Shown here: in pieces, positions 29,889 through 32,267 of the stretch
Layout: the number at the start of each line of letters is the position of its first letter
Numbering within the stretch: position 1 is the first letter of the stretch
Assembly: GCA_027593175.1 (NCBI GenBank)
Contig: JAQCJI010000021.1
Coordinates: forward strand, 1 to 34,801
DNA length: 34,801 nt
Direction of reading: 5' to 3'
From: Bacteroidota bacterium
Lineage (GTDB): Bacteria > Bacteroidota > Bacteroidia > Cytophagales > Cyclobacteriaceae
Notes under the pieces: model-generated
What the model saw: only the letters and a program-made list of their open reading frames with translations
What the model was told of the DNA's origin: nothing
The model's database searches: none
Position numbers and translations under genes: made by a program

Positions 29889-30536
29889 ATGGCAACAGCA
29901 GCATCTCCATTGGCCCAAAAAATTAAGGAAGCTCTAGATTTTGATAAGCGACTATTTTTTGTACTTCTTGTTATTATCTTTCTTACAATTAGATACTTGA
30001 CCAATACGCTGATTTTGGAAGCCATTCCAGATTCGGAGCAATTGGATGCTCAAGGTGACCTGCTATTTTTTCATATTTTCAACACCCTAAACTACATCTG
30101 GACACCCTTAGCACTACTCTGGAAGTTTACCGTAATCGCCTTCCTTTTCTGGTCCATCAGTTTAACCATCGGCTACAAGGCACCCTTTAAGGCTCTTTGG
30201 CATTTTGCTTTGGCCACCGAATTTATATTTATATTCCCTGAACTGCTACGCCTTTTATGGTACCTCAATCCCACAGGAACGGTAACTTTCCTGGAGATTC
30301 AAAATTTTGAGCCCTTATCTGTGCTATGGTTACTTGGTCCTGAACAGGTAGATGAAAGATTTCACTATCCCCTTTCTATTTTGAATTTGTTTGAGATGGC
30401 CTACGGTATCGCTTGGGTCTTTGGTTTTTATACCATCAGTCGTAGAAGTATTGCCGAGAGTATCCCAGTCGTGCTTCTCTCCTACTTCCTTCCATTACTG
30501 CTCTGGCTGGCTTTTTATGCAGCCTCCTACCGCTAA
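29889..30536 (+). CDS. Multi-pass membrane protein of unknown function
   Basis: A 215-residue protein with about five membrane helices (for example FFVLLVIIFLTIRYLT, LLWKFTVIAFLFWSISLTI, AYGIAWVFGFYTIS, VVLLSYFLPLLLWLAFYA). The N-terminus is soluble and slightly charged. I do not recognise a family; the overall layout is like small Yip1-type or unclassified inner-membrane proteins. It is divergent from the TPR gene. Its stop overlaps the DUF2256 gene stop by 4 bases in convergent orientation. Confidence 0.7.
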   Translation: MATAASPLAQKIKEALDFDKRLFFVLLVIIFLTIRYLTNTLILEAIPDSEQLDAQGDLLFFHIFNTLNYIWTPLALLWKFTVIAFLFWSISLTIGYKAPFKALWHFALATEFIFIFPELLRLLWYLNPTGTVTFLEIQNFEPLSVLWLLGPEQVDERFHYPLSILNLFEMAYGIAWVFGFYTISRRSIAESIPVVLLSYFLPLLLWLAFYAASYR

Positions 30537-30676
30537 ATTTTCTTCTTCTTCCGCTCATTTCTGCAGCGATCTGAACAATAATTAACTTCTTCCCAGCAGC
30601 GTTCCCACTTTTTACGCCAAGAAAAAGGCCTCTGGCAAACCAGACAGATTTTGGAAGGCAAATGTTGCTTTTTCAT
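30533..30676 (-). CDS. DUF2256 domain protein (small zinc-ribbon-like)
   Basis: A 47-residue protein. The family pattern is clear: KICLVCQRPFSWRKKWERCW followed by VNYCSDRCR. Its cysteines (CxxC at the start and CSDRC near the end) probably bind zinc. I chose the ATG at 30676, giving MKKQHLPSKICLVC, because it matches the family start; the frame is open further upstream into photolyase coding sequence. The ATG lies one base after the photolyase stop, so it is translationally coupled to that gene. The family is known only by association, often with photolyase/cryptochrome genes. Confidence 0.88.
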   Translation of the reverse strand: MKKQHLPSKICLVCQRPFSWRKKWERCWEEVNYCSDRCRNERKKKKI

Positions 30677-30677
30677 C

Positions 30678-31943
30678 TCAAGACCATCGTTTAGAAAGCG
30701 TATGCTTTGCCAGAATTCGCTTGCCATCCATCACTACCGCATCGGCTTTTTGAGCAGCCCAAATACGCTTTCTTGCTTCTGATGCCGCTTTTTTAATATC
30801 CACAATCGAGAAAGGATAGTCCTTACCGTATTCAAATCCTAGTTCTTGCTGCTCCAAAGGAGTAAGCTCCCAGGGTTGATGCAAGAAAGTAGTGGGCAGC
30901 TTTGTAAGTTCAGGAAGCCACTTTCGGATAAAAACACCTTCCGTATCATGGTCTTTAGCTTGCTTTATCGGATTATATACACGTATGGTATTTATCCCTG
31001 TGACCCCAGCTTGCATCTGCAATTGTGGATAATGGATTCCAGGTTCAAAATCCAAAAATTGTTGTGCCAAAAAGTTAGCCCCGGATTGCCACGATTGATC
31101 CAAATGGTGCGTCAGAAAGGAAACTACCATTGCTCGCATTCGAAAATTTAAATAGCCTGTTTCAACTAAGCAGCGCATACAGGCGTCCACCAAAGGCACC
31201 CCGGTTTTTCCCTCCTGCCAAGCCTGAATCCAATCGGGACGACTTGCATTTTCATTCCCTTTAAAACCCTGATTGATGGATTCACTATCCATGCGTGATT
31301 CCATTTCAAATTTTTGAATAAAATGACAATGCCATTTAAGTCGAGATTGGAAATTGAGAAGGTTTCGAGCTTGCTCACCCTCAGCAATCTTTTTACTCGT
31401 TTGCTGGTAAACCTCACGGGTAGATAGGCATCCCCAGGCCAAATAGGGAGATAATCGGCTGCAACCGGTTCTACTTCCCTCTGGTTTACTGATCTGCTTA
31501 CTGTAATTTTTAGCTCTGGAAAGGAGAAAACTTTTTAAGTATTTTCTACCTATTTGCTCCCCACCAGGCTGCATTTTAGGTGCTTGAGCAGTCCACGCAC
31601 TTGGCAAGGGGCAACGTATTCCGAAAGTGGAATATCCTGAAGGAGAAGGGGCAAATTTTGCTTGGTCAATGGAGAACACACCTAGCAGTTGCAAAAAAGC
31701 ATCCTTGACCTCACCGTCATAGACTAAAATATCCCCTTTAATCTGGGCTAACCTTTCCCGCATGTCTTGAAGACTCTGGTATACAAAGCGCCAATGTCTT
31801 GCACTGCTTTGGGGAGCATTGACTAAGGATGGTTCAAAACAATACAAAAGAAGAATTGGGAATCCTGCGGCAATCGCCTGCGCTAAAGGTTGATGATCGC
31901 TCAATCTCAAATCCCTCTTCAACCAAACCACAGAAATTTTCAT
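30678..31943 (-). CDS. Photolyase/cryptochrome family protein with shortened N-terminal domain
   Basis: A 421-residue FAD-binding flavoprotein. The N-terminus starts [20 protein letters not shown]. The FAD domain from about 150 has [28 protein letters not shown] and [17 protein letters not shown]. Relatives are typically about 470-490 residues. After the third strand (DILVYDG, 71-77) and the segment LGVFSID, the usual helix and fifth strand of the alpha/beta (antenna) domain are missing. The sequence runs directly into a linker ([15 protein letters not shown]) and [15 protein letters not shown]. About 50-60 residues appear to be lost in frame. Repair activity or another role cannot be decided from sequence. 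The ATG at 31943 is chosen because it gives [13 protein letters not shown]. Confidence 0.88.
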
Positions 31944-31989
31944 ATTCTTAAAACCTTGAGCTGCTCGCAAGGTTTAAAGAATATGAAAA
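31937..31989. repeat. 53-bp near-perfect palindrome containing both divergent start codons
   Basis: The left arm 31937-31958 and right arm 31968-31989 are 22 bases each and match as inverted repeats at 21 of 22 positions, with a 9-base centre (31959-31967). The photolyase ATG (complement of 31941-31943) and the TIGR03643 ATG (31983-31985) sit at exactly mirrored positions. Because of the symmetry, both strands read QG(F/L)KNMK through the start in their respective frames. It may be an operator for a dimeric regulator or an RNA hairpin that hides the start codons. Confidence 0.9.
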
Positions 31990-32267
31990 AATTAAAAGAA
32001 CTTTCACTTTCAGATATTGATCGAATTATAGAGATGGCCTGGGAGGACAGGACCCCTTTTGATGCAATTTTGAGTCAATTTGGAATCAGTGAAGGCGAGA
32101 CCATACAACTTATGCGCTTACACATGAAGAAAAGCTCATTCAAGATGTGGCGTACACGGGTACAAGGTCGCAGTACCAAACACAACAAAAAAGCACCAGA
32201 CGACCTACTGACCTTCAAGTCTAGGATGCAAAAAGGAATCGCGATGAATAAGGTTTCCAAGCGCTAA
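31983..32267 (+). CDS. TIGR03643 (DUF2805) family protein
   Basis: A 94-residue cytoplasmic protein whose central block LSDIDRIIEMAWEDRTPFDA is followed by a motif with SSFKMWRTRVQGRSTKH. Both match TIGR03643. The helical arrangement and basic C-terminal half suggest nucleic-acid binding, but no function is established. I chose the ATG at 31983 because it gives a start inside the family; the frame is open to 31890. It is divergent from the photolyase gene with 39 bases between the starts, inside the palindrome. The family tends to occur near photolyase and DUF2256 genes. Confidence 0.87.
   Translation: MKKLKELSLSDIDRIIEMAWEDRTPFDAILSQFGISEGETIQLMRLHMKKSSFKMWRTRVQGRSTKHNKKAPDDLLTFKSRMQKGIAMNKVSKR

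Follow-up and report, generated by a model that had tools for sequence, protein, structure and literature searches.

A self-complementary candidate promoter inside a palindrome between divergent photolyase and DUF2805 genes

Why should the start codons of two divergent genes stand in mirror positions within one 53-bp palindrome? The question is raised by a locus in a 34,801-nt stretch of DNA from a member of the Cyclobacteriaceae (the window), where a photolyase gene is read to the left and a TIGR03643/DUF2805 gene to the right.

The palindrome and its flanking genes

The features of the locus that are used below are as follows.

30533-30727, minus strand: DUF2256 gene; overlaps the photolyase gene at the latter's 3′ end
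30678-31943, minus strand: photolyase/cryptochrome-family gene, ATG at 31943-31941, with a predicted leaderless start
31937-31989, no strand: 53-bp palindrome, with arms 31937-31958 and 31968-31989 and spacer 31959-31967
31951-31975, no strand: conserved core AAAC-N17-GTTT, putatively two superimposed promoters
31952-31957, plus strand: AACCTT, proposed −35 of DUF2805; its AAC (31952-31954) reads on the minus strand as GTT, the proposed −10 of the photolyase gene
31959-31967, no strand: spacer AGCTGCTCG, inverted relative to its sisters, and the reverse complement of GGAGCAGCT at 8 of 9 positions
31969-31974, minus strand: AACCTT, proposed −35 of the photolyase gene; the GTT at 31972-31974 on the plus strand is the proposed −10 of DUF2805
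31983-32267, plus strand: TIGR03643/DUF2805 gene, 94 aa, with a predicted helix-turn-helix-like N-terminal part

The preliminary description of this DNA, made from the letters alone, had given the palindrome arms of 22 bases matching at 21 positions around a 9-base centre, and had placed the two start codons symmetrically about position 31963 with 39 bases between them. Both statements hold. An inverted-repeat search of 31800-32150 returned the 31937-31989 palindrome as its sole inverted repeat (arms of 22 nt, 21 of the 22 positions paired or 95% complementarity, 9 nt between), and the gene coordinates place the photolyase ATG (31943-31941, minus strand) and the DUF2805 ATG (31983-31985, plus strand) exactly as described. 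Folded as RNA, the palindrome gives −22 kcal/mol with z = −6.2, and none of 200 shuffled sequences folded equally well. Arms of 20 bases with at most one mismatch and spacers of up to 30 occur at just two sites in the whole window, and five Markov-1 sequences of the window's length contained no arms of even 16. The palindrome is far beyond chance. The second of the two sites, at 1473-1526, has 20-base arms that are perfect at 1474-1493 and 1506-1525; it lies between convergent genes that resemble, by eye, those for biotin carboxylase and pyruvate kinase, and is probably a two-way terminator.

The identities proposed for the two genes are likewise borne out by profile matches, to FAD_binding_7 for the photolyase (E = 3.9e-66), and to DUF2805 (E = 1.1e-32) and TIGR03643 (E = 3e-32) for its neighbor. 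Across the family, 102 of 196 genomes contain TIGR03643; within the genus the count is 53 of 59. We found almost no literature on either DUF2805 or TIGR03643. The 94-aa protein is strongly conserved among relatives. Its structure model has several helices and a mean pLDDT of 83.6, and residues 11-60 are helical and confidently modeled (pLDDT 90-94 per block). A sequence search against solved structures gave no significant match. The structural matches are all weak (best Foldseek E = 0.92): spliceosome chains head the list with Z up to 6.3 and GcrA has Z = 5.3, and many of the other matches listed are DNA-binding helix-turn-helix domains, namely GcrA, LsrR, DeoR, TrpR and sigma region 4. DUF2805 is taken here to be a probable DNA-binding protein. 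A decayed second copy of the gene, with two stops, was seen in another genome (G137:C60:5967-6159).

In Flavobacteriaceae and others (L176, L182, L192, L213, L217, L220, L240, L249) the DUF2805 gene is found closely downstream of the photolyase gene on the same strand, and the link between the two genes holds in this arrangement too.

A core conserved in relatives

Is the palindrome itself conserved? We scored 153 DUF2805 loci, taken from one genome per species and related to one another rather than independent; 74 have a photolyase gene that is divergent and directly upstream, and 79 do not as scored. The strict sequence AAAC-N17-GTTT occurs within 70 nt in 70 of the 74 divergent loci, compared with 0.2% for mononucleotide shuffles, and is missing in four (L011, L053, L065, L068). 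Exactly 7 nt separate its GTTT end from the DUF2805 ATG in 62 of the 70 core-bearing loci; the gap widens to 8 to 21 nt in the remaining 8. Outside this core most relatives show little symmetry. Alignment of related genomes had been suggested as the check on the palindrome, and its outcome is divided: the 22-base palindrome is absent from most relatives that have the divergent pair, but the core is kept. What relatives conserve is mainly the inner 25 bp.

The register was examined further by scanning AAC-GTT spacers of 10 to 24 at all gaps within 60 nt of the DUF2805 ATG. The combination AAC-N17-GTT-N8-ATG was found in 62 of 73 loci with a divergent photolyase and in 19 of 66 without; the next-best combination of spacer and gap reached at most 3 in either set, and the shuffle maximum was 2 and 3. 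Since the same arrangement precedes DUF2805 genes that lack a divergent photolyase, the element belongs to DUF2805. On the photolyase side, where start codons were counted without a frame check, an ATG, GTG or TTG lies 8-10 nt from the GTT in all 64 motif-bearing divergent loci, and at 8 nt in 43 of them. Among same-strand photolyase-DUF2805 operons of other families, 12 loci had no AAC-N17-GTT within 60 nt upstream of the photolyase ATG (L216 among them, with an unsure start; L023, L069, L076, L080 and L097 were left out). L207, of the same-strand operon set, has AAC-N17-GTT, but at another gap.

Sites that serve one gene can be compared with those that serve two. After thinning to below 85% protein identity we had 33 divergent and 15 one-way loci, all chosen as motif-bearing. 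The left AAC[ACT][AT]T is kept in 11 of the 15 one-way loci, and their right side is usually a bare GTT; a mirrored −35 hexamer on the right is present in 26 of the 33 two-way loci vs 4 of the 15 one-way loci (Fisher 1e-3). Three one-way loci, set aside post hoc, have a start codon at the mirror site: a DUF2256 gene starts there in L118, and short frames (MKRIN and VKKIN) in L075 and L096, which we read as photolyase remnants. Without these three the left −35 is kept in 8 of 12 one-way loci and the mirrored one in 1 of 12, against 24 and 26 of the 33 divergent loci (Fisher 3e-5 for the mirror). The mirrored half is thus mostly missing where the second gene is missing, which favors two superimposed promoters over an operator for a dimer. 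Some symmetric base pairs covary weakly (uncorrected p = 0.02-0.04), as would also be expected of a symmetric operator.

The G246 locus (L325, 1738-1906) is a natural swap of the photolyase for DUF2256 at the site. The mirror position here is occupied by the start of a DUF2256 gene, at 8 nt from the GTTT used for the photolyase in other loci. The neighboring genes resemble those of the window, and no photolyase was seen in the 3.4 kb read.

The core as a candidate promoter

The reading that we find fairly probable is that the inner 25 bp form a self-complementary promoter of the ECF kind, giving near-leaderless divergent mRNAs, with the outer arms of the palindrome as a by-product of template switching. 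The functional part would be AAAC-N17-GTTT, with AACNWT as −35, GTT as −10 and 17 bp between AAC and GTT, such that the −35 of each promoter overlaps the −10 of the other. Because AAC-N17-GTT is its own reverse complement, the same bases could serve RNA polymerase in both orientations. Transcription would begin at both ATGs or no more than a base or two away, and nearly leaderless mRNAs would run leftward for the photolyase and rightward for DUF2805. The sharing of the site would couple the expression of the two genes, and very probably, by inference, one cis element does serve both. The preliminary description had the promoters either overlapping the palindrome or lying in the opposite gene; this reading supports the overlap by inference. 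It had also suggested that one regulator or one RNA switch could control both genes; joint control through one shared cis element would remain, the RNA switch is unsupported, and a single dimeric regulator is possible but disfavored.

Counted from the A of the ATG as +1, GTT spans −11 to −9, and AAC spans −31 to −29. In the open complex of Mycobacterium tuberculosis sigma-H, as given in extracts of the crystal-structure paper (PMC6411747), GGAAYA at −34 to −29 forms the −35, G−11T−10T−9 forms the −10, and the optimal spacing is 17 bp. The core is like these promoters in its GTT at −11 to −9, its AAC-type −35 and its rigid spacing; unlike them it lacks GG before the AAC, and its AAC is one base closer to GTT. 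With an AAC-type −35, a −10 of the GTC/GTT type and rigid spacing, the core has the sequence marks of an ECF promoter, and its spacing and register resemble those of ECF-sigma promoters. It differs from the known ones in its self-complementary arrangement. In Flavobacterium psychrophilum, according to the available part of PMC9723704, an ECF-type motif with a CGT box exists and just 5.5% of mRNAs are leaderless; the latter figure argues against leaderless starts as a general rule.

Bacterial bidirectional promoters were reportedly described by Warman et al. in 2021. Pseudo-symmetric DNA there engages RNA polymerase in two orientations and is transcribed divergently (extracts of PMC12825309; see also PMC10268837). 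The core is similar, as a pseudo-symmetric element that by sequence carries the promoter elements of both strands and would offer polymerase two orientations. The known examples share a sigma-70 −10 and have starts mostly 18 bp apart, with 10 and 23 also common (PMC12825309, in part); in the core each −35 overlaps the other's −10, the elements are ECF-like and the predicted starts are 40 bp apart rather than about 10, 18 or 23. With starts 40 bp apart and no shared −10, the core would be a variant of the known bidirectional promoters. Among the literature matches listed, all of them open-licence papers, we noticed no arrangement in which −35 and −10 exchange roles. If the proposal is right, two core promoters can occupy the same bases of a palindrome and give it the look of an operator or an RNA hairpin.

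Does the site occur before other genes? It is found upstream of genes for a DUF6992 membrane protein (Pfam E = 1e-44; L326-L355), where AAC-N17-GTT precedes the ATG in 21 of 30 loci, 17 of them at exactly N8. Leaving out the four genomes first noticed through the motif, it is present in 17 of 26. The window's own DUF6992 copy (L355) seems, by eye, to have N18. Among background ORFs of at least 150 aa, 1 of 445 has the site, and that one had itself been chosen earlier by the motif. Two other candidates were rejected. Phytoene desaturase as a general target has matches in 2 of 30 loci, at gaps of 12 and 14 and none at N8; IspH matches recur in three genomes, and by eye the sequence upstream of them seems to be coding, part of the gene before. 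Genome-wide counts of the site before ATGs showed no excess and were below control, so that either the regulon has few members or the rest of them lack leaderless starts.

We also looked at sigma factor genes. In G227, which has 13, AAC-N16..18-GTT precedes none at a distance typical of promoters; its two matches lie 30 and 38 nt from a start. Of the 59 genomes of the genus, 57 have a close ortholog of one ECF sigma gene of this genome (L387; L399-L428), and AAC-N17-GTC lies upstream in all 30 of the best loci, 9-13 nt from the ATG. This suggests that the AAC-N17 geometry, there with GTC in place of GTT, is one that ECF promoters of these bacteria employ. The gene lies 12.7-27 kb from the photolyase locus in 22 of the 38 genomes listed; the remaining 16 have the two on separate contigs. 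Of the 59 genomes searched, the window's own (an assembly that is 83.5% complete) and G202 show distant paralogs only. We considered the product of L387 as the cognate factor; its own upstream site has GTC and the core has GTT, which argues against this.

Alternative sigma factors take part in responses to light elsewhere, RpoE of Rhodobacter in the photo-oxidative response being an example. In Vibrio cholerae the genes of the photo-oxidative response are under ECF or MerR control (MerR/ChrR; extracts of PMC5241685), and an alternative sigma factor at the core would be akin to the MerR/ChrR and RpoE systems. Among the literature matches listed, again open-licence papers, none stood out that links an alternative sigma factor to a photolyase of Bacteroidota. 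The proposal yields a promoter motif that can be tested and adds two further genes, DUF2805 and DUF6992, to a possible photolyase-linked sigma regulon in that phylum.

Alternatively, a dimeric regulator could bind the core as a symmetric operator and control both genes from promoters that we have not recognized here; the simplest candidate would be DUF2805 itself. MerR-type operators have a similar look. Two helical turns separate the half-site centers, the site is tied to DUF2805 even where the photolyase is missing, and the helix-turn-helix-like protein is encoded divergently to its supposed target; its confidently modeled N-terminal helical part has many helix-turn-helix matches, though with weak scores. 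Against this, half-site symmetry is not a property of all sites, the one-way sites being mostly asymmetric (mirror in 1 of 12, or 4 of 15), DUF6992 genes share the same one-way site, and the constant N8 to the ATG is the behavior of a core promoter. We regard an operator as unlikely.

Two overlapping promoters of the housekeeping sigma-A, in which the bases before each ATG form a degenerate −7 box (AAnnTTT for TAnnTTTG), are more doubtful still. The sigma-A −7 consensus is TAnnTTTG (F. psychrophilum; PMC9723704, in part), and this box is all but absent in register from the two-way sites. AAnnTTT does stand in register on the DUF2805 side of 48 of 64 divergent loci, but just 1 of these 64 has the T of the box (TAnnTTT in register: 1/64 divergent, 0/20 one-way), AAnnTTT itself recurs in only 3 of the 20 sites that serve one gene, and the invariant AAC 17 bp upstream is left unexplained. 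Five of the 21 DUF6992 sites also read TAnnTTT in register, and a housekeeping promoter is possible at those sites. A scan with the sigma-70 consensus, which is uninformative for Bacteroidota, found no site. By eye and uncounted, some flavobacterial DUF2805 genes have TAnnTTTG-like boxes about 7 nt before the ATG; in other families the gene likely has a different promoter type.

Least credible is an RNA switch, suggested at the outset, in which a hairpin would cover the start codon of transcripts initiated on the far side of the palindrome. A strong hairpin is predicted at the window's palindrome, and seven further loci, all of the same clade, have one too; these eight are the strongest of 64 motif-bearing divergent loci folded as 46-nt segments against mononucleotide shuffles. 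Only 16 of the 64, however, have z < −2 (median −0.8), no Rfam match reached its gathering score, and the fixed register suggests starts at the start codons, so that the transcripts would carry no hairpin. The region does not behave as a conserved structured RNA or riboswitch.

The outer arms and an inversion

What, then, of the outer arms, some 14 bases on each side that include both ATGs? Among the loci read, long outer arms are confined to the window's small-genome clade. In the closest genomes (79-86% DNA identity) the arms range from broken to perfect. Pairing is unbroken from the core through both ATGs in G206, G200 and G202, the arms are gapped in G242, G203, G229 and G221, and just 16-19 of 26 positions pair in G260, G207, G261, G198, G214 and G249. 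Relative to G200, its sister in the tree (86/99), G202 has changes at mirrored positions in both arms. The clade tree is weakly supported, and the window lies on a long branch.

Comparison with G206 shows that the element has been turned around. The 53 bases of the window match G206 at 51 positions when inverted and 45 when read directly, and the spacer matches at 8 of 9 inverted vs 2 of 9 direct. The spacer GCAGCGCCG of G198, G214 and G249, compared by hand, is oriented as in the sisters (5/9 vs 1/9); the window is therefore probably the flipped copy.

When polymerase switches template between short inverted repeats, it leaves homogenized arms and an inverted spacer as characteristic traces (extracts of PMC8604942; PMC8794818, also in part, treats the same process). 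Both are found here: in the window's clade the arms have been made alike, as in those repeats, and the spacer is inverted between close relatives. The arms would then be a lineage-specific by-product, template switching between them during replication having made them more alike and inverted the element in the window. The repeats of PMC8604942, in the part available, lie in yeast coding genes; ours lies in a putative bacterial promoter, where the inversion is expected to be functionally silent. Since that promoter would be self-complementary, a flip should change nothing in function, and the locus may be a natural case in which promoter symmetry makes an inversion mutation silent.

It is a separate question whether the arms have been selected as such in the small-genome clade, as a cruciform or a long operator, rather than arising from mutation bias. 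The perfect pairing outside the center in G206, G200 and G202 and the mirrored changes in G202 would fit selection. However, the arms are broken in four of the clade's genomes and pair at only 16-19 of 26 positions in six more, and are therefore not strictly kept; moreover, template switching alone gives homogenized arms and inverted spacers (PMC8604942, in part). We think selection of the arms improbable.

Taken at its full breadth, the proposal would be that the Algoriphagus group has an inversion-proof, self-complementary ECF-type promoter giving leaderless photolyase and DUF2805 mRNAs, within an undescribed sigma regulon that includes DUF6992, and that its symmetry tolerates lengthening and flipping by template switching. 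We offer this wider form tentatively, as possible but short of probable.

Three metagenome-assembled genomes, G202, G229 and G249, each have a pair of contigs whose overlapping ends fall near the palindrome (L262/L283, L264/L282 and L265/L284, respectively), possibly reflecting mixed sequence in the population.
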